Assembly (NCBI GenBank): GCA_017552435.1 | Contig: JAFZPZ010000027.1 | Location: 20,544 to 84,543 of the forward strand | From: Bacteroidaceae bacterium | Lineage (GTDB): Bacteria; Bacteroidota; Bacteroidia; Bacteroidales; Bacteroidaceae | Length of the DNA stretch: 64,000 nt | Direction of reading: 5' to 3' | In this document: piece by piece, positions 34,305 to 53,457 of the stretch | Position numbering within the stretch: position 1 is the stretch's first letter | Layout: each line of letters starts with the position of its first letter | The notes under the pieces: generated by a model | What the model was told of the DNA's origin: nothing | Databases searched by the model: none | What the model saw: only the letters and a program-made list of their open reading frames with translations | Position numbers and translations under genes: made by a program

Positions 34305-34312
34305 TACATTTG
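34305..34312 (+). promoter_or_regulatory. Bacteroidetes-type -7 box heading the regulator-NRPS operon
   Basis: TACATTTG followed by CAG lies 17 nt before the first ATG. Up to the next clear box at 53521, eight genes follow in one direction with gaps of 0-39 nt, so it may drive about 19 kb. Confidence 0.6.
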
Positions 34313-34329
34313 CAGGCAAAATAGCAAGT

Positions 34330-36579
34330 ATGAAAAGGATGTCTTGCCTGTGCTTGAAAGGTGCGAGGTCCCGCCTGCGCCCGAGCGATGCGAAGAGCTT
34401 TTGGGGTTGGCTTGTGAATGCCTTCAGAACGAACGCCAGTTTATCGCTCATCATTGCTGCGGCATTGTTGCTGGAGTTGTTATCAGCAGCACAGTACTAT
34501 TATTCACACCATCTGATGGAGGATGAGTTGGAGAAGCGTGCCGAGATGGAACTGACAACAAAAGCTATCATTGCGGACGGAATGATAAATAATTCGGAAC
34601 GATCCCTCAAGAGCCACATTATGGAGGTGAAGAAGAGCCTTGCCTATCCCGACTCCCTACCGGGCATCCTGGCATGGATTCTCAAGTTCTCTCCCAATCT
34701 GAGGGGATGCGGCATCGCATTCAATCCAGGCTACTACAAGGATAAAGATTACCTGTTCGAGCCATACGCGCTGAGAACAGACAGTGGCATCCAGCGCCTG
34801 CAAGTGGCCGGAGAAGGGTTCGACTACACAAAGGATGGCTTCTACAGGTACATCGAGGAGAAGAAGACTAACAGCTGGGTTGGGCCATACGACGACGCCT
34901 ATCTGAAGAAACAACTCATCACCTATGCCGTGCCTATCTACGAATTCACAGGAGACACGGTGGCTGTGCTCGGCATCGACATCGAAACCCAAAGGCTGAG
35001 CGATACGCTCAACTATAGGCACATCTATCCGTCGTCGTTCGACCTCCTGCTCACAAAGGATGGCCAACTGATAGCAGGCCCACGTGACCCCAGCTTGAAT
35101 AAGAAGGTGGAAGACGTAATCCGTGTCATCAATGACAGCACAATCAAGAAATCTTGGATTAAAGAGAGCAGAATGCACACGACTTCCTATTATGACGAGG
35201 AGGCAGGCGACGAAATGTCCATCTTCTTTGCCAACATAAAGGAAGACCCGCATTGGCAGATTGCCGTAGTGTGCTATGACGACGAGGTATATGGTTCGCT
35301 CAGGGCACTGCGGATTCGTTTACTTCTGCTTTCCATGCTGGCTTTCGGCATACTGCTATTCATTGTGGGATTCTTTGCGAGGAACGAGGTGAAACTGAAA
35401 CAGAAGACTCTAGAGGAAGAGCGCATAGCAAGCGAGTTGCGTGTGGCCAGTCAGATACAGCAGAGCATGTTGCCCCCCAGCCACCTGCAAACAGACGATG
35501 TGAATATCAGCGCTTCGCTGGTGCCGGCCCGTGAGGTGGGCGGCGACCTCTATGACTACTTCATCCGCGACGAGAAGTTGTTCTTCTGTATTGGCGATGT
35601 CAGCGGCAAGGGTGCACCATCGGCCATGCTGATGGCTGTAACCCGTGCGCTGTTCCGTTCAGCATCGGCTCATGAGAGTGTTCCCTCTCGTATCATGCAG
35701 TCTATCAATGAGACTATCTCTCAAGGGAATGAATCAAATATGTTCGTCACCCTATTCATTGGCGTACTCGATCTGCCCACAGGCCGCCTGCGTTATTGCG
35801 ATGCCGGTCACGACGCTCCTATTATAATTGAGAATGGGAAATTGACTATTGATAATTGTAATCCACATCTTCCCATCGGTGTGTTCGATGACGTGAAGTT
35901 TGGCCTGCAGGAGACTCAGCTACAGCCCGGCAGCACCATCTTCCTTTATACCGACGGACTGACGGAGGCGAAGAACGAGGAGCGCAAGCAATTCGGTCTG
36001 GAGCGCGTAGAGTCGGTACTCGGTACCCAGGTCGCCAAGCAGCCCCAGGAGATACTTGAACAGGTCACTGAGGCCGTCCACGGATTTGTGAAGAATGCAG
36101 AGCAGAGCGACGACCTGACAATGCTCGCAATCCGCTATACCCCCAAACAGTTTAAGAGCAAGTTGACGGAGACACTTGTGCTGAAAAACGATGTCCATGA
36201 GGTCTCGCGCTTCAGCAGTTTTATAAAGCAGGCAATGGAGAAATTGAATATTGAGAAGTCACTGGCCCGCAGGTTGCGACTCGCCGTCGAAGAGGCGGTG
36301 GTAAATGTCATCGATTATGCTTATCCTGCCTGCACCGAGGGTGAAATTACGGTCAGAATTATGTCCGACGGCCAGAGACTCCATTGTCAGATAATAGACT
36401 CTGGTGTACCCTTTGACCCTACAGCGAAGGAAAAGGCCGACACCTCACTCTCGGCCGAAGACCGCCAGATAGGTGGATTGGGCATCCTGCTGGTGCGCGA
36501 GCTAATGGACAGCATTAACTATGAACGAACTGACGGCAGGAACATCCTGACGCTCATCAAAAGGATTGGAAAACAGTAA
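34330..36579 (+). CDS. Membrane sensor fused to SpoIIE phosphatase and RsbW-like ATPase domain
   Basis: This 749-residue protein appears to combine the two enzymes of a partner-switching module. Two membrane segments (about residues 36-55 and 325-345) flank an extracytoplasmic sensor with Cache-like features (WVGPYDDAYLKKQLITYAVP). A short coiled coil leads to a PP2C-type SpoIIE domain (about 385-600) with VPAREVGGDLYDYF, IGDVSGKGAPSAM, CDAGHDAPIII and QSDDLTMLAI. An HATPase_c domain like RsbW/SpoIIAB (about 610-745) has RLAVEEAVVNVIDYAYP (N box) and GGLGILLVRELMD. The two activities are expected to dephosphorylate and phosphorylate the downstream STAS protein. A heptamer array encodes about residues 499-510. 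Confidence 0.9.
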   Translation: MKRMSCLCLKGARSRLRPSDAKSFWGWLVNAFRTNASLSLIIAAALLLELLSAAQYYYSHHLMEDELEKRAEMELTTKAIIADGMINNSERSLKSHIMEVKKSLAYPDSLPGILAWILKFSPNLRGCGIAFNPGYYKDKDYLFEPYALRTDSGIQRLQVAGEGFDYTKDGFYRYIEEKKTNSWVGPYDDAYLKKQLITYAVPIYEFTGDTVAVLGIDIETQRLSDTLNYRHIYPSSFDLLLTKDGQLIAGPRDPSLNKKVEDVIRVINDSTIKKSWIKESRMHTTSYYDEEAGDEMSIFFANIKEDPHWQIAVVCYDDEVYGSLRALRIRLLLLSMLAFGILLFIVGFFARNEVKLKQKTLEEERIASELRVASQIQQSMLPPSHLQTDDVNISASLVPAREVGGDLYDYFIRDEKLFFCIGDVSGKGAPSAMLMAVTRALFRSASAHESVPSRIMQSINETISQGNESNMFVTLFIGVLDLPTGRLRYCDAGHDAPIIIENGKLTIDNCNPHLPIGVFDDVKFGLQETQLQPGSTIFLYTDGLTEAKNEERKQFGLERVESVLGTQVAKQPQEILEQVTEAVHGFVKNAEQSDDLTMLAIRYTPKQFKSKLTETLVLKNDVHEVSRFSSFIKQAMEKLNIEKSLARRLRLAVEEAVVNVIDYAYPACTEGEITVRIMSDGQRLHCQIIDSGVPFDPTAKEKADTSLSAEDRQIGGLGILLVRELMDSINYERTDGRNILTLIKRIGKQ
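35824..35858 (+). repeat. Heptamer array inside the SpoIIE domain
   Basis: Five diverged units of ATAATTG type are read in frame as ENGKLTIDNC, in a loop between conserved phosphatase motifs. Confidence 0.75.
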
Positions 36580-36618: not shown

Positions 36619-36921
36619 ATGGACACAAGAATTGAAGAGACCGAAGGCAGGTATGTTGCCATATTAGAGGGAGAAATGGATACGGCCGCCGCAGTTGAGG
36701 CCGAAGAAGTGCTGAAACCACTCTATGAGGCTGGTGGCAAGGATGTAGTTATCGACTGCACTGGGCTGGAATATATCGCTTCCAGCGGCCTTCGCATCCT
36801 GCTAAGCATTTTGAAGGGCGCAAAAACCAGCGGTAGCCGCGTGGTGTTGCGTGGCGTGAACGACGATATCAAGAATGTTTTCAAACTGACAGGCTTCATC
36901 AGTATCTTCGAGTTTGAATAA
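36619..36921 (+). CDS. STAS-domain anti-sigma factor antagonist (RsbV/SpoIIAA-like)
   Basis: This is a single STAS domain of 100 residues. The core DCTGLEYIASSGLRILLS carries the Ser (Ser56, just before Gly) that partner kinases phosphorylate in SpoIIAA and RsbV. It lies 39 nt after the sensor phosphatase/ATPase and is presumably its substrate. When unphosphorylated, such proteins bind and sequester the ATPase domain. Bacteroidetes do not have SigB, so the output may be another sigma factor or a non-sigma partner. No obvious output regulator is encoded nearby. Confidence 0.92.
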   Translation: MDTRIEETEGRYVAILEGEMDTAAAVEAEEVLKPLYEAGGKDVVIDCTGLEYIASSGLRILLSILKGAKTSGSRVVLRGVNDDIKNVFKLTGFISIFEFE

Positions 36922-36946
36922 TGATATGGGAAGATATAATACAGTA

Positions 36947-39196
36947 ATGAGACGTTTTTTGTTTAGCATTGCATTGATCACTCTGCACTCTGTGCTCTTT
37001 ACTTTTGCAGGTCAGGCGCAGACTGATTCTACAATTGTAGAAAGCCGTCAGGCCGATGATCGCAATGTGATGCTCGATGCCTCGGCGTCGGCCAAGCCAC
37101 GTGACATCCCTATCGGACTTCCCGGCGAGACGGGTGGCACCATGATTATGGAGGATGGTATGCCGGTGGCATCTACGTGGAGCCCCGTCTATCCATACGT
37201 CCATTGGGCGGGTGGCAGCAGCTACGCCGACGTGGGACTTATGGGCATTGAGGAGACCGCACTAAGAACCGGCGTACTGGGATTCTCCGTGGGCAGCCAT
37301 ACGGTCCTTGGTACAGATTCGCTGCACGGCACGTTGAGCGCTAAGACCAACAACGATGGACTGATTCTCCTGGACGGCAACCTGAACGGTGCCCTGGCCC
37401 GCGGATGGTATTTTACTGTCGGGGCCTATGCCAATTTGGACCCTACATCGGTGCATCCCAAGCATGTCACTTTTGTCAACAACACCCAGATATACAAAGC
37501 CGGACTGACATACCGCTGGGGGCGTTCGGAGGCATCGCTGCTATATAAACTTACGGTGAACCGCGACGGCCTGTTTGGTTGCGACCGGGCACCGTTCATC
37601 TACAACGGCGACGGAAGCATAGGCCAACTGAACGGCTTCCGTTTGGGACGCGACTCTTATATGCCCACTGATGTGGCATTCACTTACATGGATTTGGAGA
37701 ACGGGCAGCTTGTCAGCACAAACATCAACGACGAGAACCGGCGCTTCATCCACGACCTGACGTTTATGATGACTAATCGGCTGAACGACGCTTGGAGTGT
37801 GGAAAGCCGTCTACATCTGACGGGAACAAAGGACATGGCTATGATAGGATTTTCCGAGACGGGGATAGACCAGATCTCAGCCGGACGGGATGCCCAAGGA
37901 CGGCGCGTCACCACAGCTGATGGCTGCGACTATACCGGCCTAATGCAGCAGCGGCTGCTGTTTGCCCAGCACTTCGATTTCTTCGAAACGCTGGCGCAGA
38001 GCGAACTGGTCCGCAGGAAGCATGGCCGCCAGACGAATCTGGGAATAGGGTATTGGTTTTCGTACCAATATGCCAGGGCGGCCACTGTGACCATGGCCCA
38101 GTGCGTGGAAAACGACCCCAGAAGGCTGATGGTGGACGGTCAGCGCCAGTGGGACTACAACAGTTCGGCTAATTACGGACGGGGTCGTGAGCACTTCCTG
38201 AGTTTCTATGCCATGGAGGACTGGCAGGTGGCGCCCAAGTTGAACCTCTACTATGGGCTGCGGGCAGAGCTGTTCCACAGCGACTATGACCTGGCTGTGA
38301 ACTACATGGACGGCCAGACCAACAATTCGCGGCACAGCGGATTCTATACGGCTGACGGCACGGTGAGCATCAGCAACCACAGGCGGACAAAGATGAACAT
38401 CACAGGTGTGGCGCGTGCCAACTACAGGCTGGCAGGTCCCCTCTTCCTCTCGGGGGAATACATCTATCTGAATCAGCAGCGGCGCTTCGACCAGTTCCGT
38501 TTCGAGACGATGCCCAGCGACAGACCCTACGTGAAGCAGCTTCTGCGCTTCGGCGTCAGCTACGAGAAGGCGTGGCTGCGGGCATCGGCCATGCTCAGTT
38601 ACATCAACAGCAGAAATATTGGTTCCACTCAGTATTTCACCAAGCAAATAAATGGCGTCAGCGAGACACAGGGAAAGAATACCACGTATGACATCGGTAC
38701 TCTGGGTATTACGGCCGATGCTACAGCCACATGGGACGGCTTGGCCATGCATGTGCTTGCCACGTATCAGGAACCCCGGTACCGCAACTTCTGTGTTCCC
38801 CTCACCTTCAGCGACGGTTCGACAGTGGTCCTGGACTATAATAGCAACTATGTGACGGGAATGTCCAGGGTGCTGCTGGAACTGGACCCCAGCTACCGCC
38901 TTGGTGACTGGCGGCTTTGGTTCAGTGCACGCTACTACAGTCGGCAGTACGCATCGCTGGTGGGCAACGTTTATTTCGACGGTCACTGGGAGACGTTTGC
39001 CGGACTGGACTGGACCGCCACCCAGCGACTCTCGCTGGGGCTGTCCGTTACCAACCTCTTCTGCCAGAGCGGAGCCAATGGCAGTATAGCAGCAGCCAAT
39101 ACCATCACAGACAATTCGTTGCTGCAGGGCTATTGTACCGCGGGCACCTTCATCCGCCCTTTCACGGTCAGCCTTTCGGCCACCTATAAATTCTAA
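36947..39196 (+). CDS. TonB-dependent-receptor-like outer-membrane barrel
   Basis: This is an exported outer-membrane protein with a signal peptide (MRRFLFSIALITL...FAGQAQ) and a C-terminus ending in aromatic SLSATYKF, as barrels do. The first about 120 mature residues (DIPIGLPGETGGTMIMEDG, then DSLHGTLSAKT) resemble a TonB-receptor plug. The rest alternates as in beta strands, with YxLxGPLFLSGEY and ITDNSLLQGY-like turns. I chose the third in-frame ATG because it starts the signal peptide. The earlier ATG at 36914 overlaps the STAS gene. It lies 22 nt before the NRPS and could import a cognate compound or export the product. Confidence 0.78.
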   Translation: MRRFLFSIALITLHSVLFTFAGQAQTDSTIVESRQADDRNVMLDASASAKPRDIPIGLPGETGGTMIMEDGMPVASTWSPVYPYVHWAGGSSYADVGLMGIEETALRTGVLGFSVGSHTVLGTDSLHGTLSAKTNNDGLILLDGNLNGALARGWYFTVGAYANLDPTSVHPKHVTFVNNTQIYKAGLTYRWGRSEASLLYKLTVNRDGLFGCDRAPFIYNGDGSIGQLNGFRLGRDSYMPTDVAFTYMDLENGQLVSTNINDENRRFIHDLTFMMTNRLNDAWSVESRLHLTGTKDMAMIGFSETGIDQISAGRDAQGRRVTTADGCDYTGLMQQRLLFAQHFDFFETLAQSELVRRKHGRQTNLGIGYWFSYQYARAATVTMAQCVENDPRRLMVDGQRQWDYNSSANYGRGREHFLSFYAMEDWQVAPKLNLYYGLRAELFHSDYDLAVNYMDGQTNNSRHSGFYTADGTVSISNHRRTKMNITGVARANYRLAGPLFLSGEYIYLNQQRRFDQFRFETMPSDRPYVKQLLRFGVSYEKAWLRASAMLSYINSRNIGSTQYFTKQINGVSETQGKNTTYDIGTLGITADATATWDGLAMHVLATYQEPRYRNFCVPLTFSDGSTVVLDYNSNYVTGMSRVLLELDPSYRLGDWRLWFSARYYSRQYASLVGNVYFDGHWETFAGLDWTATQRLSLGLSVTNLFCQSGANGSIAAANTITDNSLLQGYCTAGTFIRPFTVSLSATYKF

Positions 39197-39218
39197 AAAA
39201 TAACTCATTTCCACAAAT

Positions 39219-42200
39219 ATGAAAACTTTCGCACCATTATCAAAAGTACAATATGGTCTGTACGTAGAGTGTGTAGCACACCAAGGAGAGGCATGTTATA
39301 ACTTGCCCTATTTATATGTTCTCGACGGTACTTTGGACGAGGAGAAGCTTTGCCGGGCCATCGAAACCGCCGTGGCAGCGCATCCGACGCTGTTCACACG
39401 TATAGAGCTGAACGATCAGGGCGATCCCCTGCAAACTGTCGATGATACAGAGACGTTCAAGTTGAACGTTGAATATATTGAGAATTTAGGGCTGGAAGGA
39501 AAATCTTTCAACTCTCAACTCTCAACACTCAACTATCTCATTGTTCCCTTCAATATCTACGAGGACCGTCTCTTCCATATCCGGTTGCTCAGAGATAAGG
39601 AGCATTTCTATTTTTTCCTCGACATTCACCATATTATCGGCGATGGCACCACGCTGAAAGTGATGCTGGCGGATCTTGAGAAGGCATACGCAGGCGAGGC
39701 GCTTGAACCAGAGGCCATGACAATGGCTGAAGTGGCCTTGGCTGAAGAAGCACTGCGCAAGACGTCAGCCTTTGAAGAAGGTAAGCAATGGTATGCCCAG
39801 AACTTCGACTGCAGCGACTGCTATACGCCATTGATGCCCGACCTTGACGACCCCGTACATTCAGAGGCCTCGATGGTGCGGACGCTTGGTATTGATATGG
39901 CGCGGGTAGATCAGTTCTGCAAGGACAACGGCATCTTCAAGAGCAACTTCTTCACGACAGCCTACAGTTTCCTGTTGGCCCGATACAACAACGAACAGGA
40001 GTCGCTGTTCACCACCATCTATAACGGCCGCACCGACAAGCGTTTCCTGCATTCTGTAGGTATGACGGTGAAGACGCTGCCCGTGTATGCCAAGTTCGAC
40101 AACGAGACCAAGGTGCTCGACTATCTGAAAGCCGGTCAGGACCAGATGGGCGGAGTGCGCAAGCACGAGGCATACGCCTTCAGCGATGTGGTCAACGACC
40201 TCGGTCTGCAGAGCAACACGATGTTCGCCTGGCACGGCATGATGTTTGCCGACGAACAGCTCTGCGGCAAACCCATGAAGACCATCCGCCTCTGTAACAG
40301 CACGCTGGAGGCTTCGCTCTATCTGAAAGCCTTTATCCTGAATGGCAAATATCAGATCAAAGCAGAATACAACAGCAACGAGTATTCCGAGGCGCTGATC
40401 AGCCAGTTCTTAGAGAGCTACGAGGCCGTGGTGGAGGGATTCCTTACCAAGGAGTATCTGCGCGATGTGAACATCACTACGACTTCTCAGATAGTGTTGC
40501 TCGACAGCTTCAACGATACCGACAGGCCCTACGACGACACCCAGACCGTGGTATCACTGTTCCGTCGCCAGGTCAAGGCCACGCCAGATGCAGAGGCCGT
40601 AGTGTTCAAAGACCATCGCTATACCTACGCACAGGTAGATGAAATAAGTGACCGCCTTGCAGGTTATATCGCATCGAAGGGGCTTGGCGTGGGTGATGCC
40701 GTGTCCATTATTATTCCTCGCTGCGAATGGATGGTTATCGCCTCCTTCGGTATTCTGAAAGCCGGCTGTGCCTATCAGCCCCTCGACCCCAGCTATCCCA
40801 AGGAGCGTCTGAACTTCATGGTGAAGGATGCTGCAGCAAAGTTGCTGATTGCCGACGAGGAGCTGCGCGACTTAGTAGACGAATACCAAGGCGAAGTGCT
40901 GCTGACGAAAGACATCCAAAATATCGAAATATCGGAATGTCAACATGTCGAAATAAAACCATCAGACCGTTTCATCCTGCTCTATACCAGCGGATCGACA
41001 GGCGTTCCAAAGGGCTGTCAGCTGACGCATGGCAACCTGGTGTGCTACTGCAACTGGTATTGGAAATACTATGCGCTGAAGCCAGAGCACAACGTAGCCG
41101 AATATGCCAGCTACGGCTTCGACGTACACCAAGAGGGTATCTATCCGCCACTGACCGGCGGTGCCACCGTACACATCATCCCTGAGGAGCTGCGACTGGA
41201 CCTCGTATCGCTCAACGACTATCTGGAGCGCGAACACATCACCCATACCTTCATGACGACACAGGTGGGTTATCAGTTTGCGACAAACATAGAGAATCAC
41301 TCCCTGATTCACATGTCAGTGGCTGGTGAGAAGTTGGCAAGTATCGCTCCACCAGCTGGCTATCAGTTGCACAACGGCTATGGTCCTACAGAGGCCACTA
41401 TCATCATTACTGTCTATCCCGTCACGAAGAAGAATGCGGACGTGCCCATTGGCAAACCGTTGGACAACGTAAAACTCTATGTAGTCGACCAGCAGGGACG
41501 CCGTCTGCCTGTGGGCGCTTTGGGCGAGCTGTGGGCAGCCGGACCACAAGTGGCACTCGGTTACCTGAACCGACCGGACAAGAACGCAGAGGTATTCATT
41601 CAGAATCCCTTCACCACCGAAGAGAAATACATCCGCGCTTATCGCACTGGTGATATCGTACGTTACCTGCCCGATGGCAACATCCAGTTTGTGGGCCGTA
41701 AAGACGGACAGGTGAAGATTCGTGGCTTCCGCATCGAGTTGAAAGAGGTGGAGGCTGTCATCCGCGAGTTCCCCGGCATCAAGGACGCTACCGTACAGGC
41801 TTTCGACGACGAAAATGGCGGCAAGTTCATCGCTGCTTATATCGTCAGCGACTCTGAAATCGATATTGAGGCGCTCAACGACTTCATTCTCGACCAAAAG
41901 CCGCCGTATATGGTTCCTGCTGTGACGATGCAGATCGACGCTATTCCGCTGAACCAGAATCAGAAGGTGAACAAGAAGGCTTTGCCAAAACCTGTTAAGT
42001 CTGCTGCGACTGAGTCGCAACAAGCGATACAGGCCCCGATGAACGTCCTTGAACAAGAACTTCACGAGATGATTGCGGGTATCATTAACCATTCCGATTT
42101 TGGTATCACTACCGTACTTGGCTTTGCGGGCCTGACCTCCATCTCAGCCATCAAACTCGCCGTACAGGTGAACAAGCGCTATGGCATCACGCTCGATGCG

Positions 42201-45200: not shown

Positions 45201-46634
45201 GCAGAGGACGATTTCTTCGAAGTGGGTGGTAACTCTATCCTCGCCATGAAGGTGGTCATTGCCGCTGAGAAAGCAGGATACAGCATTGTCTATAACGATG
45301 TATTCTCATACACTACACCTCGATTAATGGCAGAATTCCTGGGTGCAGGCTCAGAAGAAAGTGAGGAGACTAGCGAGACAACGGGAACGACAGAAGGTGG
45401 CATATGGGTACCACCGGTAGTTGGCAGCGACAAGTACGACTACACACAGATTCACGAGTTGCTCTCTCATAATACGATTGAGGCATTCCGCAATGGCGAA
45501 CATCAAGCCATTGGCGACGTGCTTCTGTTAGGTGCGACGGGCTATCTTGGCAGTCATGTGCTTCACGAGTTGATTGTGAGCCATAACGGCAAGATATACT
45601 GTTTAGTTCGTCCGGGAAAAGAGGAGAATGGACAGGCCCGTCTGAAAGCCATGCAGCGTTATTATTTCGGTGACAACGATGCCTCGATTGCCGATGCTTT
45701 ATACGACTCACGTATCATCGTCATCGACGGCGATGCCACTGATCCCGCTTCGTTAGAGCAGTTTGAGGCGCCTCATAGTGGCATGACGGTCATCAACTGT
45801 GCTGCCAGTGTCAAGCACTTTGCTAAGGGCAACGAGATTGACCGCGTGAATGTCGAGTCGGTAAAGAATCTGACGGCATGGTGTCTGCGCTGGGATGCAC
45901 GTCTGGTACATATCTCAACCGGTAGCATCATGGGTAGTCGTAAGAACGGTCTGCCGCCAACCACATATCGGTTTAATGAACAAGTGCTTTATGCAGGTCA
46001 GGAAATCAATTTCAACCAGTACGTACACTCCAAGTTCATGGCCGAACGGCACATCTATGAGGAGATTCTGGAGCATGGACTGAAAGCAAAGGTAATGCGT
46101 GTGGGAAATCTGGCACCGAGAGCACAGGACGGCGAATTCCAGATAAACTACTCGACCAACACCTATATGAACTCACTGCAGGCATATCAGGCCCTGGGCT
46201 TCATTCCATACGACGCTCTGGTCAAGCTGACGGAGTTCTCACCCATCGATGCGCTGGCAAAGGCCATCCTCGCCTTGGCAACTACACCGGAGGACTGCGT
46301 ATGCTTCATTCCTATGAATACCCATCGACCACTGATGGGAGACGTCATCCGCGTGTTGAGTGCCCTCAAAGATCCTATTCAAGGTGCTGAGAACGAGACA
46401 TTCGCAAAGGCTCTGAATGAAGCACTTGCCTCTGAAGCCAAGAGCCAGTCCGTAAGCACTTTGATTGCCTACAAGAACAATGATAACATCCAGACCATCG
46501 GTCTTGAATGCTTAAACAGCGACTATACCAACAGAGTTTTGGAACGCCTTGGATTCTCTTGGCCAGAGACGGGTTCTGCCTACATCCGTCAGTTCATTGA
46601 ACGATTGGCAGAAAAAGGTTTTTTCAAGTGCTAA
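39219..46634 (+). CDS. Nonribosomal peptide synthetase, C-A-T-C-A-T-reductase
   Basis: This dimodular 2471-residue NRPS has C1 (about 1-430, HHIIGDG at 137-143), A1 (440-935, LYTSGSTGVPKG, GYGPTEA, specificity loop at D635), T1 (Ser974 in GLTSISAI) and C2 (1045-1440, HHLVSDG at 1168-1174). A2 (1455-1955, loop at D1674), T2 (Ser2006 in GGNSILAM) and a thioester reductase (2060-2471, GATGYLG at 2105-2111, Y2268/K2272) follow. By-eye specificity residues are D-V-E-F-S-A-G-I-I for A1 and D-V-S-L-V-G-G-C-G for A2, neither a code I can assign. Starting with an intact C domain, it needs an upstream acyl or aminoacyl donor. The reductase should release an aldehyde or alcohol. Four short-repeat arrays are read in frame. 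Confidence 0.95.
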   Translation: MKTFAPLSKVQYGLYVECVAHQGEACYNLPYLYVLDGTLDEEKLCRAIETAVAAHPTLFTRIELNDQGDPLQTVDDTETFKLNVEYIENLGLEGKSFNSQLSTLNYLIVPFNIYEDRLFHIRLLRDKEHFYFFLDIHHIIGDGTTLKVMLADLEKAYAGEALEPEAMTMAEVALAEEALRKTSAFEEGKQWYAQNFDCSDCYTPLMPDLDDPVHSEASMVRTLGIDMARVDQFCKDNGIFKSNFFTTAYSFLLARYNNEQESLFTTIYNGRTDKRFLHSVGMTVKTLPVYAKFDNETKVLDYLKAGQDQMGGVRKHEAYAFSDVVNDLGLQSNTMFAWHGMMFADEQLCGKPMKTIRLCNSTLEASLYLKAFILNGKYQIKAEYNSNEYSEALISQFLESYEAVVEGFLTKEYLRDVNITTTSQIVLLDSFNDTDRPYDDTQTVVSLFRRQVKATPDAEAVVFKDHRYTYAQVDEISDRLAGYIASKGLGVGDAVSIIIPRCEWMVIASFGILKAGCAYQPLDPSYPKERLNFMVKDAAAKLLIADEELRDLVDEYQGEVLLTKDIQNIEISECQHVEIKPSDRFILLYTSGSTGVPKGCQLTHGNLVCYCNWYWKYYALKPEHNVAEYASYGFDVHQEGIYPPLTGGATVHIIPEELRLDLVSLNDYLEREHITHTFMTTQVGYQFATNIENHSLIHMSVAGEKLASIAPPAGYQLHNGYGPTEATIIITVYPVTKKNADVPIGKPLDNVKLYVVDQQGRRLPVGALGELWAAGPQVALGYLNRPDKNAEVFIQNPFTTEEKYIRAYRTGDIVRYLPDGNIQFVGRKDGQVKIRGFRIELKEVEAVIREFPGIKDATVQAFDDENGGKFIAAYIVSDSEIDIEALNDFILDQKPPYMVPAVTMQIDAIPLNQNQKVNKKALPKPVKSAATESQQAIQAPMNVLEQELHEMIAGIINHSDFGITTVLGFAGLTSISAIKLAVQVNKRYGITLDAKSLVKSGTLQSIENEILEQMLNGQLKIDNGQLDSVPHNSQLSIVNCQLESAPLSFAQQGVFTECQANPDAVQYNIPIALHFPKEIGEEQLADAVRKVVDAHPYILCHFVADGDNGIIQEPIPDFTLDIPVKTMTADELEAYKKEFVRPFDLEKGPCVRFEIVKTDKLTLLADTHHLVSDGASVDLLITQLTQALDGTVPQREDYTYYDFVRDEEITPETERFFEQQMAEVEEPTQLIPDVFVQNLPHIQKSVFVATDIQAVKAFAQKNGITPAAVYLGASFITFGRYVCEDLVSIVTVSNGRSNIKVWNTMGMFVNTLPLVTTLDNHEKTADFLRRVSQNFSDTIEHENYPFARIASRYDFHPQISYAYQIGVLNDYRTKYGAVEMEGLALELAKLPVAVYIVGTEGDARIKVDYDTALFSEEMMTGLAKSIDNVVSTLMESENLSEVSLTGKEEWKMLDSFNADWDLDFDKTDTVVSVFRRNAKNQPDKVAAVFKDKAYTYRELDKLTDQLAAKLYAHACQATGKTVLAEEVISILLNRNENVFILPLAAVKAGLAYEPLDPSYPKERLNFMVKDAGACLLVAEESLLGLVDEYEGPTVTVEELYASPDLTADNCQLSIVNCQLKPSDLLIMLYTSGSTGLPKGCQIEHRNMVAYAHGVRNDFYRRDDRIAAYASFGFDVNMSDVFCTLLNGGTVYLIPEEIRMNLDALARYFDEAGITALLLTTQVGVQFLQNYPQLKTLRMLVMGGEKLPAVDPSRLSYTIVNGYGPTENCCGVSLFPIRAWEPNIPIGKPMATIHGYVLDKSGHRLPAGAAGEYCLSGPQVSRGYLNRPDKTAEAYESSPFDEFRMYHTGDIVRYRQNGDVEFVGRKDGQVKIRGFRIETKEVEAVIRGFSGISDVTVQAYDYEGGGKYLAAFVVSNNTIDIDALREFIKSQKPAYMVPAAIVQIEKIPLTVNQKVDKKALPEPRLQKAAYVAPKGKTEKDFCAIFEEVLGVERVSAEDDFFEVGGNSILAMKVVIAAEKAGYSIVYNDVFSYTTPRLMAEFLGAGSEESEETSETTGTTEGGIWVPPVVGSDKYDYTQIHELLSHNTIEAFRNGEHQAIGDVLLLGATGYLGSHVLHELIVSHNGKIYCLVRPGKEENGQARLKAMQRYYFGDNDASIADALYDSRIIVIDGDATDPASLEQFEAPHSGMTVINCAASVKHFAKGNEIDRVNVESVKNLTAWCLRWDARLVHISTGSIMGSRKNGLPPTTYRFNEQVLYAGQEINFNQYVHSKFMAERHIYEEILEHGLKAKVMRVGNLAPRAQDGEFQINYSTNTYMNSLQAYQALGFIPYDALVKLTEFSPIDALAKAILALATTPEDCVCFIPMNTHRPLMGDVIRVLSALKDPIQGAENETFAKALNEALASEAKSQSVSTLIAYKNNDNIQTIGLECLNSDYTNRVLERLGFSWPETGSAYIRQFIERLAEKGFFKC
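39510..39537 (+). repeat. Heptamer array inside C1
   Basis: Four units of CAACTCT type encode NSQLSTLNY, in a loop about 30 residues before the catalytic HHIIGDG. Confidence 0.85.
40916..40955 (+). repeat. Octamer array just before core motif A3 of A1
   Basis: Five 8-bp units of TCGAAATA type encode QNIEISECQHVEI, immediately upstream of the ATP-binding LYTSGSTG loop. Confidence 0.75.
42263..42345 (+). repeat. Head-to-head heptamer arrays in the T1-C2 linker
   Basis: Five CAATGGA/CAATTGA-type units (42263-42297) and five CAATTGT-type units (42311-42345) lie around a 14-nt spacer. The two arrays are largely complementary because the core CAATTG is palindromic. Both are open in frame and extend the linker by about 28 residues. 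Confidence 0.88.
44042..44076 (+). repeat. Heptamer array just before core motif A3 of A2
   Basis: Five CAATTGT-type units encode DNCQLSIVNCQLK. The position matches the arrays in A1 and in the second synthetase. Confidence 0.9.
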
Positions 46635-46640: not shown

Positions 46641-49600
46641 ATGGAGAAACTACTTCATGAACGAATCGCGGCTTATGCAGCTGTAAACCCTTCGAAGACA
46701 GCCTTGCTGGATACGCAAGGGGAAATAAGCTACGGGCAACTGGAGGCCATGAGTGCCTCCCTTGCCTGTGAGCTCGCTGCGAGGGGTGTCCGTCAAGGCG
46801 ATGCCGTGGCAGTATATGTGCCCTATGGCAAGGACATTCTGGTGGGTGCAGTGTCTGCACTTCGCGCTGGCGGCATATTTATCCCCTTCGACGAGGCGTA
46901 CCCTGTGGAACGCCTGGAGAGCATACTGCAAGATTCCGAAACCAAGGCTATTCTGACTGTACAGGAGTTGTGGAACAGCAAAACCCTGCACTTCCCAAAA
47001 GAAAGGGTTATCTTTATGGATGAGACAGTGCCGGTGGAAGATAATTCTCAATTGTCAATTGTCAATTGTCAATTATCAATTCACGAGGACTCTCCCGCTA
47101 TGCTGCTCTACACATCCGGAACGACGGGCCGTCCCAAGGGCGTGCTTCACACCCATAAGATGCTGACGCACATCGTGGATTGGATGAATATTCACGAAGG
47201 TGCTGAGATGGATGAAAGCACTCGCACAGGAGTCATGTCAGGCATCTCCTTTGTAGGTACGCAAATGTTTCTGTTAGGACCGCTCAGCAAAGGCGGTACC
47301 GTATGTTTTGCACCGGAAGCGGCACGAAAGGATGTAGGATTCCTCTACCAGTTTATCCAGGAAGTAGGCATTACCCATATCTTCCTGCCTGCAGCACTGG
47401 CAGCCATCATGGCAGAGGATTATGACATCAGCGGCCGGTTCATCTTCGCTGCCGGAGAAAAACTGCGCAATTTTAGGGCGCATAACCCGGGCAATGTGCT
47501 CATCAACAGCTACGGATGTACAGAAACCAGCGGTGTGCTGTCGAAGAAGGTATATGGAGGCGAGGAGCGTGTCCTGGTTGGCAAACCGTTTTCCAACACC
47601 AAGACGCTCATCGTCGATGATGCGCTTCGTCCGGTACCTCGCGGAGAAGCCGGGGAACTGGTGATTTCCAACGACTTCATGTCGCGGGGCTATTTCAAGT
47701 TGCCGGAGCAGAGTGCTGAGAAATGGAAGCAGATCGACGGTGTCTGCTGGTATCGCACTGGTGACAGGGCGAGATACACGGATGAGGGGGACGTAGAGCT
47801 TCTCGGACGCATCGACAATATGGTGAAGCTACGCGGTTTCCGCATAGAGACCGGCGAGGTGGAGGCTCAGATTGCCAAGGCCATCTCTAAACTCTCATCT
47901 CTAAACTCTAAACCCACATTGGTTGTAGTCGTCAAGAACTTAAACGGCGTTGACCACCTGTCGTGCTATTATGAGGCGAAGCGTGAACTAGATAAGAATG
48001 CGGTAAAAGCCGAAATTGCAAAAAGTCTGGCGGAATACATGATACCCGATGTATGGGTACGGATGGACGTTCTGCCACGTAATGCCAATGGCAAAGTGAT
48101 GCGAGGGGAACTTCCGAATCCAAAGAGAGAGCGGATCATCACGGGTGTCATTGACAGCGAAGTGCTGTTCAGAATATTGGCAACTGCCGAGGAAGTATTA
48201 GACGGAGACACCCATATCGGACCTGACGAGAGGTTTACTGACGTCGGTGGAACGTCGCTTGTCGCTATGAAATACGCCACAGCACTACGCCAGCAAGGTA
48301 TCAAGATAACCGGTAAGCAGATATTACAATATAACGTTTTCCGCAAGATTTCCGAGGTCGCCGAGGTGGCCTACGAGCAGCTATGGAGCCAGGAGGAGTT
48401 TGAAAGCATCGTTCGTGACTTTGCAGCAAGGGGTGAACACATCGAAAAAGTGTTGCCTATTACGAACTGGCAGAACGAGATGTTGTTCCGACAGTTAATC
48501 AAGCCCGATTCCCACAGCTACCGGAATGTAGTTTTCCTGCAGGTCGACAGCATCGTCGGCGAAGCACATCTGCGCGAAGCCCTCGACATCGTAGCCCGTG
48601 AGAACGAGCAGCTGCGGTCGGCCATCGTATTCCATGGCATTCCCGTCATACAGCAAGTCATCACCGACCGCAGGATACCCCTGGAGATGCTGGACGCGGC
48701 TGTTTACGACCACCAGACGCTTGGAAAGGTGCGCGATGCATTGTATAGTGCCCCCATCGACCTGCAATTCAGCCCGATGATGCGGATGGTTTGCCTGCAT
48801 GCCAACGGAAAGAGCTTCCTCTACGTGATGACCCATAACATCGCAGTGAGCCAACAGCAGCTGAGGGGGTACTTGTTAAGGCTGATGCAGGTGCTGGCAG
48901 GCCATTATCCCGACGATGTCTCTATCAGTGGATGGGTAGAGATATTAAGTGAAAAGGGAATTGAAAATAGTGATAAACTTGCAACCTCCGAAGTGGGGAG
49001 CGCGGAAGGAAATTCTTCTTCGCAAAGCTCAGGCGCAGGCGGAACACTCTTCACTCTTCACTCTTCACCTTCCGAGATGTGTGTATATTCAGCAAACGAT
49101 GGTCCAAAGATGGTATTCGTACATACAGCCAATACCGGCAGCGACGCGTACTACCAATTAGCCGACAGAATAAGCGATACGGTGTCCTTCGCTGTCATCG
49201 AGCCGTACAATCTGTACCATCCCGATGATGTGCGCCGCAGCATCAAAGCTATTGCCTCGAACTATATCCGTATTCTCAAGGCGTATCAGCCCGAAGGTCC
49301 ATATATTCTCGGCGGCTGGTGCTACGGTGGAATAGTGGCACACGAAATGGCTTGTCAGCTCCGAGAAGCAGGAGAAGACGTACAGCATCTCATCATGCTT
49401 GACTCCCATGCATTGGGAAACAGCACACTTCGTGAGATGTCCAGGGGGATGTTCTCTGAAGTCAATGTGGCGTATTTTGAGACATGTCCATTGTTTGCTG
49501 AGCTTAGAGAGGCGGGCATGCTGGAAGCGATGGTCAATAATGCCGCCAACGTAGCCGACGACTTGATGCACCACAGTCTATCGTTCTTCGATGGCAACGT

Positions 49601-49814
49601 GACGTATTTCAAGCCCGACCAAATCCCTGCCGGAGTGACGGGCGACAACCTGAAATACTGGGCAAAGATGATGGAGTTTGAAGCAGGCAATTTCGAAAAC
49701 TACTGTGACAAGTCGAAACTCCATATCATTCATACCCCCCACGAGCACGACCTCATGATGGACGATGCTTCGCTGGATATTATTGTACCTGAGTTGTATA
49801 AAATACTTAAGTAA
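46641..49814 (+). CDS. Second NRPS: A-T-half C domain-thioesterase with Cys nucleophile
   Basis: This 1057-residue protein starts directly with an adenylation domain (about 10-490; LYTSGTTGRPKG, RGFRIETGEVEAQ, catalytic Lys in NANGKVMRG). At the first specificity position the usual Asp is Val205 (SFVGTQMF), and core A5 reads YGCTE instead of YGPTE. A carrier domain follows (Ser539, GGTSLVAM). Only the N-terminal lobe of a condensation domain remains (about 590-765), with the motif degenerated to HNIAVSQ. After a repeat-encoded linker comes a thioesterase (about 815-1057) with GGWCYGG (Cys894), then LDSHA and HEHD. Lack of a leading C domain suggests an initiating module that loads a substrate without an alpha-amino group. 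It lies 6 nt after the first NRPS. Confidence 0.92.
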   Translation: MEKLLHERIAAYAAVNPSKTALLDTQGEISYGQLEAMSASLACELAARGVRQGDAVAVYVPYGKDILVGAVSALRAGGIFIPFDEAYPVERLESILQDSETKAILTVQELWNSKTLHFPKERVIFMDETVPVEDNSQLSIVNCQLSIHEDSPAMLLYTSGTTGRPKGVLHTHKMLTHIVDWMNIHEGAEMDESTRTGVMSGISFVGTQMFLLGPLSKGGTVCFAPEAARKDVGFLYQFIQEVGITHIFLPAALAAIMAEDYDISGRFIFAAGEKLRNFRAHNPGNVLINSYGCTETSGVLSKKVYGGEERVLVGKPFSNTKTLIVDDALRPVPRGEAGELVISNDFMSRGYFKLPEQSAEKWKQIDGVCWYRTGDRARYTDEGDVELLGRIDNMVKLRGFRIETGEVEAQIAKAISKLSSLNSKPTLVVVVKNLNGVDHLSCYYEAKRELDKNAVKAEIAKSLAEYMIPDVWVRMDVLPRNANGKVMRGELPNPKRERIITGVIDSEVLFRILATAEEVLDGDTHIGPDERFTDVGGTSLVAMKYATALRQQGIKITGKQILQYNVFRKISEVAEVAYEQLWSQEEFESIVRDFAARGEHIEKVLPITNWQNEMLFRQLIKPDSHSYRNVVFLQVDSIVGEAHLREALDIVARENEQLRSAIVFHGIPVIQQVITDRRIPLEMLDAAVYDHQTLGKVRDALYSAPIDLQFSPMMRMVCLHANGKSFLYVMTHNIAVSQQQLRGYLLRLMQVLAGHYPDDVSISGWVEILSEKGIENSDKLATSEVGSAEGNSSSQSSGAGGTLFTLHSSPSEMCVYSANDGPKMVFVHTANTGSDAYYQLADRISDTVSFAVIEPYNLYHPDDVRRSIKAIASNYIRILKAYQPEGPYILGGWCYGGIVAHEMACQLREAGEDVQHLIMLDSHALGNSTLREMSRGMFSEVNVAYFETCPLFAELREAGMLEAMVNNAANVADDLMHHSLSFFDGNVTYFKPDQIPAGVTGDNLKYWAKMMEFEAGNFENYCDKSKLHIIHTPHEHDLMMDDASLDIIVPELYKILK
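47042..47083 (+). repeat. Heptamer array just before core motif A3 of the second NRPS
   Basis: Six CAATTGT-type units (42 nt, 14 codons) encode NSQLSIVNCQLSI, at the same position as the arrays in A1 and A2 of the first NRPS. Confidence 0.9.
47888..47915 (+). repeat. Heptamer array in the small subdomain of the second NRPS
   Basis: Four TAAACTC-type units encode KLSSLNSKP, in the loop after the EVEAQIAKAI helix. Confidence 0.8.
49045..49072 (+). repeat. Heptamer array in the linker before the thioesterase
   Basis: Four CACTCTT-type units encode TLFTLHSSPS, between the truncated condensation lobe and the thioesterase. Confidence 0.85.
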
Positions 49815-51170
49815 ATGATACAAAAGTCTTTTAACAGGGAGTACTGGGTATTCCTGTGGTCATCCATCCTCATTGCCCTCTCGGCCTGTCTGGGCACTGT
49901 GTTGGATGCCATCATTGTGGGTAACTTGATAGATGAGGACTCGGTGAGTGCCATCAACATCTCGCGCACCATGGTGCAGTTCTTGTTCACCCTGAGCATG
50001 CTTCTGGCACTGGGTGCGGGTATGCTGGTGGGTATGCAGCTGGGAAAGAAGGACCAGCGGCATGCCTCCTATATTTTCACCGTGTCGATGGCGGCCTATG
50101 TTGCCGCGGGTCTGGTCATTGCGGCTGTCGGATTCCTGTTCCCCGATGCTTCTACCAGGCTGTTCTGTAACAACGAGCGTTTCTTTGAACCTACCAAGGC
50201 CTATCTGCAGGTGATGATGCTCGGTGCACCGGTCTATCTGCTGATGTGGGGCCTGGATGCGATGGTTAGCGTGGATGGCAGTCCGAAACTGGTATCGCTC
50301 TCCATTTTCGTCGATAATGTGGTCCATCTTGTGCTCGACATCGTGTTCATCAAGTATCTGGGTTGGGGTATTGCCAGTTCGTCTGTGGCAACTGTCATCG
50401 GCCATGCCGTTGGCATCGCCTTCATGGCTTTCCATTTCCTCTCGCCTCGGAACAACCTGCGGCTTGTGTGGAGGAGTGACGGGAAAGACTATACTCTTCG
50501 CTCTACACTAAAAGACATCATTTCGCAGGGTGCACCGCTGGCCATTGCCTCCATTTGTTTGACGCTGCTGCTGTTCAGTTCCAACCGCATCGTGCTGTCC
50601 ACGCTGGGGCGTGCAGGTATTTTTGCTTTCTCGCTGTGTTTGTATCTGTTGCAGATCTACAATCTTTTCCTGTCGGGTGTCTGCCGCACGATCCAGTCGT
50701 TGGGTTCCATCCAGGTGGGGAAGGGCGACAACGAAACGTTCAAACTGGTGCTGCGCAAGTCGTTCAACTTCATCACCGTGGCGATGGTGATTACCTGTGT
50801 GTACGTATGGATATGGCCGGAGTCGATAGCGATACTCTTCGGCGCCAACGAGCCGGAGCTGATAGCTGCGTCGCATAGTGCGCTGCGACTGTTTGCGCTC
50901 AGCTTTATTCCGTTCTGCTATATCAACGCCATCATGATTGTCTACAAGCTCTACGGCCACCACAAGATGGCGCTGTTCATCTCTTTCGCCCTCTCGTTGA
51001 CCGTCATCCCTGTGCTCTGGGTTATGTCCATGCTCATGCCGGACCTGCTCTGGTACAGCTACCTGATTGCCTACGTCATAGAGATGGCCGCTATTGTTAT
51101 TCTGCATAAGGCGATGCACATCAGGTTCGTTCTGCCAATGGCGAAAAGCAGTTCCGACACTGCCACCTGA
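49815..51170 (+). CDS. MATE-family efflux transporter
   Basis: This is a 451-residue inner-membrane protein with about twelve hydrophobic segments in two homologous halves, the MATE/NorM-like pattern of cation-coupled drug or metabolite export. The N-terminal segment GTVLDAIIVGNLIDEDSVSA corresponds to the conserved first helix/loop. Its ATG directly follows the NRPS stop codon (TAAATG), the tightest coupling in the operon. It is therefore the likely inner-membrane exporter of the peptide product. Confidence 0.92.
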   Translation: MIQKSFNREYWVFLWSSILIALSACLGTVLDAIIVGNLIDEDSVSAINISRTMVQFLFTLSMLLALGAGMLVGMQLGKKDQRHASYIFTVSMAAYVAAGLVIAAVGFLFPDASTRLFCNNERFFEPTKAYLQVMMLGAPVYLLMWGLDAMVSVDGSPKLVSLSIFVDNVVHLVLDIVFIKYLGWGIASSSVATVIGHAVGIAFMAFHFLSPRNNLRLVWRSDGKDYTLRSTLKDIISQGAPLAIASICLTLLLFSSNRIVLSTLGRAGIFAFSLCLYLLQIYNLFLSGVCRTIQSLGSIQVGKGDNETFKLVLRKSFNFITVAMVITCVYVWIWPESIAILFGANEPELIAASHSALRLFALSFIPFCYINAIMIVYKLYGHHKMALFISFALSLTVIPVLWVMSMLMPDLLWYSYLIAYVIEMAAIVILHKAMHIRFVLPMAKSSSDTAT

Positions 51171-51204
51171 GGGGTAGTTCCACCTTTCAATACTTTTATC
51201 TGAC

Positions 51205-52557
51205 ATGAAGAAGATTACTATCATCCTGGCTTTATTGCTGTCCACCGGCATCTGTGCACAGACGGACTCCCTCCGGAAAGAGAAAATCAACCAGTTTGAC
51301 CTCGGACTGAATTTTCTGGGGCATGGTGAGGTGCGCGGTGGAGGTTTGCCCCGTTCCTCCGATCCCGACGTGCAGGTGGAAGGCCATGCGAACTTCCTGC
51401 AGAGTCGCTTGCGCCTCATACTGGGCTATAAGCGCAAGTGGCTCGAGGCAAAGGCAGTCCTGCAGAACAACGCCATCTGGGGCGCGAAGAACAACACGGA
51501 CATCAAGATGTACGAGGCTTGGGTGAAAGCGACGGCGCGGTGTGGACTTTTCGCACAGGGCGGTCGCATTGCACTGGCTTACGACGACGAGCGCATCATC
51601 GGTCCCAACGACTTCGCGACGGCTGCCGCATCGCACGACGTACTTCGTGTGGGCTACGAAGGGCATGGCCATAAGGTGCATGCCATATTGGCATTCAACC
51701 AGAACATCAGCAACATCAACACGGGTACCTACTATAACGATGGCGCGGAGTACTACAAGAGTATGCAGACGCTGTGGTATCACTACGATATACCTCGGTT
51801 CCCGATTGGTGTCTCGTTGCTCTTCATGAATTACGGCTTCCAGGCCGGGTTCCCCGATGATCAATATAACCCTGCCCGTACGGAATACCAGCAGATGTTC
51901 GGTGGCTACGTGAACTACCAACCGAAGTACCTGCAACTTGAACTCTCGTACTACAGGCAGACTGGCAAGGAGGTGATTCAGAAGATGTCGAACGACATCA
52001 GGGCCTGGATGGCCGGTGTGAAACTCACCATCAAACCCACAGACCGCTATGGCTTCCTGCTGGGTTACGACTATCTGAGCGGTGATGACTACGTGTCCGT
52101 CCCTCGCTCCGGCACTTTGGGCTCCTCCAATAGCCTCCAGCTGGTGCAACATCAGGTGGAGAGGGGCTTCGCGCCGATGTACGGTTCGCGCACGAAGTTT
52201 TACGGTATGATGGACTACTTCTACGAGAGTGCCTACATCAACGGCTTTACGCCCGGCCTGCAGAATGCTTTTTTCGGGGCTTTCGGCAAGCCCGTTCCCA
52301 AGTTGAACATAGGTCTCTTTTACCATTATCTGGCTGTTGCCACCGAGTTGAAGGGACTCGGACGCACGCTGGGCCACAACATCGACCTACTGGCCAAATA
52401 CGAATTCACGAAGGACGTCTCTCTCTCGGTGGGCTACACCCAGATGCTCGGTACCGAGACGATGAATCGCCTGAAGCAAAGCAGCGATAGCAAGCACGCA
52501 GAATGGGCATGGTTCTCGCTTGTCATTTCACCTAACCTGTTCACGACAAAGTGGTAA
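51205..52557 (+). CDS. Outer-membrane beta-barrel protein (alginate-export/porin-like)
   Basis: This is an exported 450-residue protein with a signal peptide (MKKITIILALLLSTGICAQ). Its body has alternating hydrophobic strands, many Tyr/Phe girdle residues and a terminal Trp, consistent with a 16-18-stranded porin-like barrel. Segments such as LQSRLRLILGYKRKWLEAKA and YEAWVKATARCGLFAQGGRI are like alginate-export-type barrels, but I cannot name a family firmly. Its position after the MATE exporter suggests passage of the product through the outer membrane. Confidence 0.75.
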   Translation: MKKITIILALLLSTGICAQTDSLRKEKINQFDLGLNFLGHGEVRGGGLPRSSDPDVQVEGHANFLQSRLRLILGYKRKWLEAKAVLQNNAIWGAKNNTDIKMYEAWVKATARCGLFAQGGRIALAYDDERIIGPNDFATAAASHDVLRVGYEGHGHKVHAILAFNQNISNINTGTYYNDGAEYYKSMQTLWYHYDIPRFPIGVSLLFMNYGFQAGFPDDQYNPARTEYQQMFGGYVNYQPKYLQLELSYYRQTGKEVIQKMSNDIRAWMAGVKLTIKPTDRYGFLLGYDYLSGDDYVSVPRSGTLGSSNSLQLVQHQVERGFAPMYGSRTKFYGMMDYFYESAYINGFTPGLQNAFFGAFGKPVPKLNIGLFYHYLAVATELKGLGRTLGHNIDLLAKYEFTKDVSLSVGYTQMLGTETMNRLKQSSDSKHAEWAWFSLVISPNLFTTKW

Positions 52558-52560
52558 GGT

Positions 52561-53457
52561 ATGAAAAGAATTCTCGTTTCCTTGCTTCTTGCATCCTGCT
52601 TCTTATCCCTTTTACAGGCACAGACGCCTCAACGGTTCCCGAAGGCCTTGCCTGCGGGAAACTATAGTGGGATAACGCCCTTAGCCGACGACCGTTATGC
52701 CCTGGTGAGCGACAAGTCGGAGGAGGAGGGGTTCTTTGTTGTGCGTATCGTCATCGACAGCATCCGGGGACGCATCTTTAGCTTGGAAAACGAGGGATTC
52801 CGTTCCAGCGGCCTGCCGAACAGAGACATCGAGGGCATTTGCTATTGCCCCTCAACAAACACTGTTTTCATTTCTGGCGAACAGGACAACGAAGTGTTCG
52901 AATACACCCTCGACGGCCAGCGTACTGGGCGGCGGTTGGAGATGCCCGCGATATTCAAGGAAGCCGACCACAACTATGGGTTGGAATCGCTCACCTACGA
53001 TGCCAGACGTCATCTGTTCTATACGACCAGCGAAAGACCTCTGAAGGGTGATTCCCTGCTCCGCATCCAGTCTTTCGGTGATGATCTGAACCCCGGGCGC
53101 TTCTACTTCTATCGGCCCGATGCCCCCATCAGCGCGAAGCACTTCCATGGGGTGTCGGCGCTTTGCGCGTTAGACGACGGACGACTGTTGGTGCTCGAAC
53201 GACAGATTCGTGTTCCTCGGCTCAAGCTGGGCGCTTCCACCGTCATCCGCATCTATGAGATTACGCCTGCAGACGACCCCATGCCTGCAAAACGGCTCCT
53301 AAGGGAGTTCCGTACTCGCCTGACCTTGACAAGCCGTCGGTTTGCCAATTACGAAGGGCTTTGCCAGCCCGCTCCCAACCTCCTTCTGCTCGTTGCCGAT
53401 TCCCAGAACCGGTACAAAGGTTTCCTGCGCGATTGGTTCGTGGTAATTAAGGATTAG
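52561..53457 (+). CDS. Secreted phytase-like esterase (PF13449-like)
   Basis: This is an exported 298-residue protein with a signal peptide ending near LLQAQ (residue 21). It has the pattern of the esterase-like activity of phytase family, a beta-propeller-type fold: SGITPLADDRYALVSDKSEE, NRDIEGICYC, FISGEQDNEVFEY and GLESLTYDARRHLFYTTSE. Biochemical function in most members is unknown. It starts 3 nt after the outer-membrane protein and may process or sense the product, but this is speculative. The last codons (VVIKD and stop) lie in a short GGATTAG-type heptamer repeat. Confidence 0.8.
   Translation: MKRILVSLLLASCFLSLLQAQTPQRFPKALPAGNYSGITPLADDRYALVSDKSEEEGFFVVRIVIDSIRGRIFSLENEGFRSSGLPNRDIEGICYCPSTNTVFISGEQDNEVFEYTLDGQRTGRRLEMPAIFKEADHNYGLESLTYDARRHLFYTTSERPLKGDSLLRIQSFGDDLNPGRFYFYRPDAPISAKHFHGVSALCALDDGRLLVLERQIRVPRLKLGASTVIRIYEITPADDPMPAKRLLREFRTRLTLTSRRFANYEGLCQPAPNLLLLVADSQNRYKGFLRDWFVVIKD

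Follow-up and report, generated by a model that had tools for sequence, protein, structure and literature searches.

A nonribosomal peptide synthetase locus of a Bacteroidaceae bracketed by a partner-switching module and an exporter, with export as a candidate output of the switch

The window analyzed here, 64,000 nucleotides of a Bacteroidaceae bacterium contig (assembly GCA_017552435.1, JAFZPZ010000027.1, positions 20,544 to 84,543), contains two nonribosomal peptide synthetase (NRPS) genes preceded by the genes of a predicted partner switch and followed by an exporter gene. The host is a gut bacterium of rumen Prevotella type, the genome of which comprises 3.5 Mb in 129 contigs and is 88% complete. 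An open reading frame (ORF) map of the window places nine genes on the + strand between 34330 and 55058, with the next gene downstream on the opposite strand. An earlier note on this DNA had described eight same-strand genes at 34305–53457; all eight ORFs are present with the domains it named, the third gene aside, as judged by Pfam. A ninth gene (53463–55058), which the note did not include, follows after 5 nt. Gaps between the eight genes are, in order, 39, −8 (4 if the third gene starts at its ATG), 22, 6, 0, 34, and 3 nt. TAnnTTTG is the −7-type promoter box of Bacteroidota. The + strand of the window has 16 copies, and one of them, at 34305–34312 (TACATTTG), stands 25 nt 5′ of the first ATG; no other copy falls in the 150 nt preceding any of the nine genes. 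Terminator-like sites occur at chance level (15 found versus 16.3 expected, both strands), and a single transcript across the gene run is plausible.

The first gene (34330–36579) encodes a 749-aa membrane protein in which a dCache/PDC sensor domain (PF22673) is fused to a SpoIIE-type PP2C phosphatase domain (PF07228) and an RsbW-like HATPase domain (HATPase_c_2, PF13581) with its N-box Asn and G1 Asp present. The second (36619–36921) encodes a single-domain STAS protein of 100 aa (PF01740/PF13466) whose ASSGL motif carries a phosphorylatable Ser, so that phosphatase, kinase, and STAS parts of a partner switch are all present. In alignments that included unlinked loci and one duplicate record, the N-box Asn is kept in 43 of 43 kinase domains and the Ser position in 45 of 46 STAS domains. 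A STAS phosphorylation cycle is predicted, in which the periplasmic dCache sensor would pit the PP2C phosphatase against the RsbW-type kinase domain of the same protein, with STAS alternating between phosphorylated and free forms. AI-2 was considered as the signal and rejected: CahR-type AI-2 receptors (dCache_1) are recognized by a five-residue rule, R126, W128, Y144, D146, and D173 of PctA (PMC9540692), and the window sensor departs from it. The Y and both D residues align, and the R-x-W pair falls on D-G-F, a position read through the ungapped 6pxy alignment because the alignment with PctA itself begins only further along.

NRPS1 (39219–46634; 2471 aa) has the domain order condensation (C), adenylation (A), thiolation (T), C-A-T, and terminal reductase (R), with two Condensation, two AMP-binding, and two PP-binding domains and NAD_binding_4 matched in Pfam. 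In translation, both C domains read as intact HHxxxDG motifs (HHIIGDG and HHLVSDG). The R domain, aligned with 6vtj, contains the motifs GATGYLG and YVHSK typical of short-chain dehydrogenases/reductases (SDR); 6vtj is its nearest PDB structure, followed by the AusA R domain 4f6c. NRPS2 (46641–49814; 1057 aa) is organized as A-T-half C-thioesterase (TE), matching AMP-binding, PP-binding, half of Condensation, and Thioesterase. Its half C lacks HHxxxDG and its TE nucleophile motif has Cys (GGWCYGG), both read in translation; kin of this TE were located by search. Specificity positions mapped by motif give the A codes DVEFSAGII and DVSLVGGCG for NRPS1 and VGMFFASGV for NRPS2.

For comparison, a genome-contig search with NRPS1 yielded 47 loci, mostly from rumen Bacteroidales; they also include L004 (Clostridia), L006 (Butyrivibrio), L042 (Clostridiales), L045 (Lachnospiraceae), and L014, in the numbering used here for all loci, and cross-phylum comparisons draw mostly on metagenome bins. 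The Asp at what we take to be position 235 in GrsA numbering is absent from the NRPS2 A domain in 10 of 10 loci, with Val or Ile instead, which tentatively argues for a starter without an α-amino group. In the same ten loci the last A code has the common form DV[AS]L[VI][AG]GCG, found also in L006, L010, and L042, where a complete NRPS2 was not seen. An R-domain tree gathers the NRPS2-bearing rows into a single 11-row clade (100/100) that includes L006 without NRPS2. This clade mixes Bacteroidota and clostridial records, mostly bins, so the NRPS unit seems to have crossed phyla; the record of Butyrivibrio L006 is not marked as a bin, and neither NRPS2 nor switch genes lie nearby.

NRPSs for N-acyl dipeptide aldehydes are defined by a C domain in first place, two amino-acid modules, and a terminal reductase, and NRPS1 matches this order in Pfam. 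The predicted product is an N-acyl dipeptide aldehyde or alcohol: NRPS2 would load the acyl starter, NRPS1 would add two amino acids, reductive release by its R domain would yield an aldehyde (or alcohol), and the product would leave through the MATE exporter and an outer-membrane barrel. Gene content agrees with the earlier note on reductive release of a short peptide, in that NAD_binding_4 ends NRPS1, and on a dedicated export route, in that both exporter and barrel are encoded.

Several further features of these NRPS genes were observed. Two NRPS genes of this kind with different A codes share one locus in L013, L016, L026, L032, and L047. The first A domain lacks Asp235 in NRPS proteins of L064, L065 (where the alignment is gapped nearby), L072, and L119, which perhaps are acyl-starting within one protein. 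Short TCAATTGTCAATTGTC-like repeats lie in frame within NRPS1 and NRPS2 (39510–39527, 42264–42296, 42312–42344, 44043–44075, and 47043–47075) and encode NSQLSIVNCQL-like peptides; a pattern search of L001, L003, L020, L026, and L036 found no such peptide, and the segments look like insertions of a repeat.

The identical eight-gene order, a check suggested by the earlier note, was found in no other mapped locus, many of these being cut by contig ends. What recurs is a core of dCache sensor-PP2C-RsbW kinase, STAS protein, outer-membrane barrel, C-A-T-C-A-T-R NRPS, and MATE exporter, which in Bacteroidota takes the form PDC-PP2C-HATPase, STAS, often the barrel OMbar2, NRPS1, and MATE. Among 121 sampled genomes of the family, 29 have condensation domains and 50 have SpoIIE, the latter being present in 25 of the 29 genomes with condensation domains versus 25 of the other 92 (p = 2.7e-8). 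Counting fragments, there are 38 C-domain places, and 18 of them, spread over 18 of the 29 genomes, have SpoIIE on their own contig at a distance of no more than 12 kb, compared with 0.94 expected; 0 of 1e6 random draws reached this count. Of the 21 R-type NRPS loci from the NRPS1 search that are flanked on either side by at least 3.5 kb, 9 have partner-switch genes no further than 6 kb away; of 15 clostridial-side R-type loci (L014 included), 8 do, L116 by way of its MATE tail only. A further count of 24/38 is enriched because L058–L077 were picked from the C-domain scan mostly for nearby SpoIIE; 9/21 and 18/38 are less biased. The pattern that would refute the note, homologous NRPS loci consistently without the regulator, is not what these counts show.

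The same counts bear on whether the arrangement is a neighborhood without function, in which mobile NRPS-MATE units landed next to common sensor genes. Such an origin would account for L001 (NRPS1-NRPS2-MATE) and L015 (NRPS1-barrel1), which hold different NRPS units beside the same flanking gene families, and for the 16 changes that the switch label needs on the R-domain tree. We consider it distinctly improbable, given 18/38 against 0.94 expected, the tight same-strand spacing, and the assembly of the same architecture from unrelated PP2Cs, described below. The flanking genes of L001 and L015 resemble, by eye, RelA/SpoT, arabinofuranosidase, and transketolase, and the two loci look as if NRPS units had been swapped at one site.

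In L004 and L045, PP2C-HATPase and STAS genes adjoin NRPS1 and NRPS2, and in L014 and L042 a STAS gene is found. Compared with the window, NRPS1 and NRPS2 of these four loci are 57–66% identical, whereas the BLAST-matched switch genes reach 27–32%. A PP2C tree of hand-picked rows groups the NRPS-linked phosphatases of L045, L117, L118, L119, and L121 with other clostridial-side phosphatases (96/86), and a single clade of all NRPS-linked PP2Cs was rejected (p-AU 1.6e-5). Locus L142, near an NRPS, stood first among the unlinked rows and was then relabeled; counting it as linked gives 2.9e-6. With the NRPS-linked phosphatases falling outside any single clade, the wiring of switch to NRPS arose more than once, and these trees show that the phosphatases were recruited to NRPS loci repeatedly.

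The exporter gene of the window (49815–51170) encodes a MATE protein of 451 aa without a kinase tail, matching PF01554 (MatE) only. MATE proteins with a C-terminal HATPase domain stand beside R-type NRPSs in L066, a genome of the same family as the window, and likewise in L116, L117, and L118. These three belong to an order that was sampled around the genome of L045 (Lachnospiraceae) and is called Lachnospirales here. MatE together with HATPase_c_2 scores above the Pfam cut-off in L066, L117, and L118 and below it in L116 and in the second frame of L067, where MATE and HATPase tail lie in a split frame. The gene order of L118 is NRPS, MATE-HATPase, STAS, PP2C, HATPase. L083 and L084 were dropped as tailed MATEs, L083 being without a Pfam HATPase match and L084 not having been scanned. 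Tailed MATEs are frequent in both the family and the Lachnospirales samples. Among 42 aligned tails the N-box Glu is present in 42, the N-box Asn in 31, and the G1 Asp in 35, and some tails are probably not active kinases. HATPase-tailed MATEs also occur in many settings without an NRPS (within L137–L176), some having lost the catalytic Asn.

A 41-row MATE tree of chosen rows interleaves tailed and untailed proteins, forcing at least 4 changes. This unrooted tree is explained equally well by repeated gain and by several losses of a single ancient tail. Six window-type untailed MATEs group (100/99) with tailed L145, which is adjoined by STAS and an NRPS, and the untailed L070 MATE sits among tailed L066, L137, L138, and L139. 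After this tree we withdrew an earlier conclusion of several independent MATE-tail fusions (single clade of four tailed MATEs, p-AU 2e-5); the tree behind it had left out L045, L121, L129, L130, and many untailed rows, and had counted L076 as untailed, the 567-aa protein of which has a long HATPase-like unscored tail. The 41-row tree thus removes convergence as evidence, adds kinship between the window MATE and tailed ones, and leaves the probability of an export output unchanged.

Within 7 kb, switch genes lie near 6 of 20 tailed Lachnospirales MATEs versus 0 of 20 untailed ones (p = 0.020), and switch or NRPS domains near 8 of 20 versus 0 of 20 (p = 0.0033), the controls being the first untailed matches of distinct genomes, with the L121 MATE passed over. 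For the 17 tailed MATEs of the family sample, the same distance takes in switch genes in 4, C or R domains in 4, and either in 6. The 40 tailed-MATE loci sampled are a hand-made subset, mostly one per genome, from which three of the 20 family loci were dropped as tail-less.

We favor, at a little below even confidence, an interpretation in which the locus, a peptide-aldehyde cassette, is controlled by a partner switch of its own that acts mainly on export through the MATE protein and not on an alternative sigma factor. The 88%-complete genome yielded one Sigma70 region-3 (Sigma70_r3) protein, in a 297-aa frame, in a search that did not extend to ECF factors, so no SigB/SigF-type target is evident; together with the MATE tails, this would make export the likeliest output, with the switch acting mainly there rather than on stress transcription. 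Of the earlier suggestion that synthesis is linked to stress-type switching, the linkage of regulator and NRPS stands, and the stress-type part does not, given the single Sigma70 region-3 protein and tails that point to the membrane. More tentatively, with a probability well short of even, the MATE exporter and the RsbW/STAS/PP2C proteins may work as a single machine gating the release of a nonribosomal peptide, the exporter being the output of the switch or its sensor. Relatives would carry the RsbW-like domain on the MATE itself, and the window lineage would pair a tail-less exporter with a kinase domain on the sensor-phosphatase. Elsewhere in the genome (contig C100, L056, 6665–11146), a CitMHS-type transporter gene stands between another sensor-PP2C-HATPase gene, the second in this genome, and a STAS gene, an arrangement that fits the export interpretation.

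Two other targets were weighed. If the switch worked as in Bacillus, its kinase or STAS protein would sequester a sigma or anti-sigma factor (perhaps ECF) and control transcription of the operon. This is the classical role of RsbW/SpoIIAB-type kinases, and the regulator is indeed the first gene behind the sole −7-type box; we nonetheless judge this scheme unlikely in light of the sigma count above, which covered region-3 proteins and not ECF factors, the lack of any sigma or DNA-binding domain among the Pfam matches of the gene run, and the occurrence of RsbW-like tails on MATE exporters. The switch might instead control the NRPS itself or another cytoplasmic target, as SiaC acts on the cyclase SiaD. 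SiaA is the second-best NCBIfam model for the window phosphatase and the best for the L118 and L045 phosphatases, although every one of these scores falls far short of the cut-off; in some loci with no MATE found inside 6 kb (e.g., L018, L020, and L064), switch genes are still neighbors of the NRPS; and sigma-free outputs of such switches have been reported (PMC9239204). No domain fusion of NRPS and switch was found in the mapped loci, however, whereas MATE tails were, and direct control of the NRPS strikes us as improbable.

A number of observations weigh against the interpretation we favor. The window MATE itself carries MatE without a C-terminal HATPase, and the N-box Asn is missing in 11 of 42 tails. 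No switch genes lie within 6 kb in 12 of the 21 R-type NRPS loci, nor in L001, the nearest relative (NRPS1 86%, NRPS2 88%), which consists of NRPS1-NRPS2-MATE; the clade with A2 code DAEGTGVDD is mostly MATE and NRPS alone, 12 of its 15 rows, some with short flanks, being without a switch. Most of the tailed MATEs sampled, 12 of 20 from Lachnospirales and 11 of 17 from the family, lack both switch genes and C/R NRPS domains within 7 kb. The MATEs used as untailed controls are more distant ones, and the untailed L121 MATE adjoins an NRPS, STAS, and PP2C; adding it to the controls changes the comparison for switch genes to 6/20 versus 1/21 (p = 0.045) and the p value for switch or NRPS domains to 0.0089. 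Finally, a third sensor-PP2C-HATPase gene of the same genome (contig C34, L055) lies among amylase- and isoamylase-type genes.

The remaining genes of the run vary in their conservation. Barrel1 (36914–39196; 760 aa from TTG, with an alternative ATG at 36926) is a putative outer-membrane β-barrel; called TonB-receptor-like earlier, it has no match in Pfam or NCBIfam, and its two 79% kin, which adjoin NRPSs in L015 and L027, have none in Pfam. Kin at 29–39% occur in 37 other genomes of 201, and barrel1 is present in 3 of 68 NRPS-bearing loci (window included; many loci cut short). OMbar2 (51205–52557; 450 aa), also a probable outer-membrane barrel, matches PF13372 Alginate_exp at 26.2 bits (cut-off 25.2; 4.3e-06), the only one of four scanned to exceed the cut-off. 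It recurs in Bacteroidota NRPS loci, with kin at 53–65% in L008, L009, L011, L026, L034, and L041. A phytase-like domain protein (52561–53457; 298 aa; PF13449) precedes the ninth gene (53463–55058; 531 aa; PF02518), which encodes a HATPase pseudo-histidine kinase (HK) with Ala at the expected His position of its H-box, FISNISAQL. Among homologous loci, taken from a family-wide search rather than from NRPS loci, this Ala is kept in 8 of 11 others; in the remaining three (L217, L219, and L220) the patterns used found no H-box motif. The phytase-like model and the N-terminal model of the ninth-gene HK match the window only (among 71 loci for the phytase-like model), and the conserved core includes neither these two genes nor barrel1. 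A PADLOC scan of the seven genes other than the NRPSs gave no match, and on this basis membership in a defense system was rejected.

Acyl dipeptide aldehydes are known from gut Clostridia (PMC12327764, PMC8518294), and gut-bacterial peptide aldehydes inhibit proteases (PMC8518294). Ruminopeptin (Ruminococcus bromii) and BGC0001686 (Clostridium) resemble the product predicted here in acyl cap, reduced terminus, short peptide, and gut habitat, a likeness of inferred product class. Their clusters are clostridial, and a partner switch, a TE-bearing starter protein, and an outer-membrane barrel go unmentioned in the sections of the two reports at hand (PMC12327764, PMC8518294). The aureusimine synthetase AusA (Staphylococcus) is the best NCBIfam match of NRPS1 (1058.9 bits, cut-off 2500) and has a related R domain; unlike AusA, NRPS1 begins with a condensation domain and is accompanied by a second NRPS protein. 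RsbU/RsbV/RsbW and SpoIIE/SpoIIAA/SpoIIAB likewise comprise a PP2C, an HATPase kinase, and a STAS protein with a conserved Ser, whereas here sensor, phosphatase, and kinase form one membrane protein, in a genome in which no SigB/SigF-like factor was found. The window switch shares a membrane-sensor PP2C, kinase, and STAS protein with SiaABCD of Pseudomonas, which has a non-sigma output (PMC9239204); in contrast to that system, no GGDEF diguanylate cyclase is among the Pfam matches of the nine genes, which encode NRPSs and an exporter instead.

A rumen catalog counted 5,346 NRPS clusters in bulk, 934 of them in Bacteroidaceae, and its main text does not contain the terms SpoIIE, aldehyde, or reductase (PMC8241843). 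In the open-licence literature we found no paper on NRPSs with SpoIIE/STAS or on MATEs with RsbW tails. New here is the RsbW-like C-terminal domain on many MATE exporters, some in NRPS loci, with the window MATE among their kin. We know of no account of how the making and release of gut-bacterial peptide aldehydes are controlled, and the repeated recruitment of a switch to these loci offers a testable handle on their control. If the export interpretation is true, RsbW-tailed MATEs would give a very common signaling module a sigma-free output and a major exporter family a new form of regulation. Both rumen Bacteroidota and the clostridial side carry these parts, so that a single set of experiments would be informative for many uncultured species.

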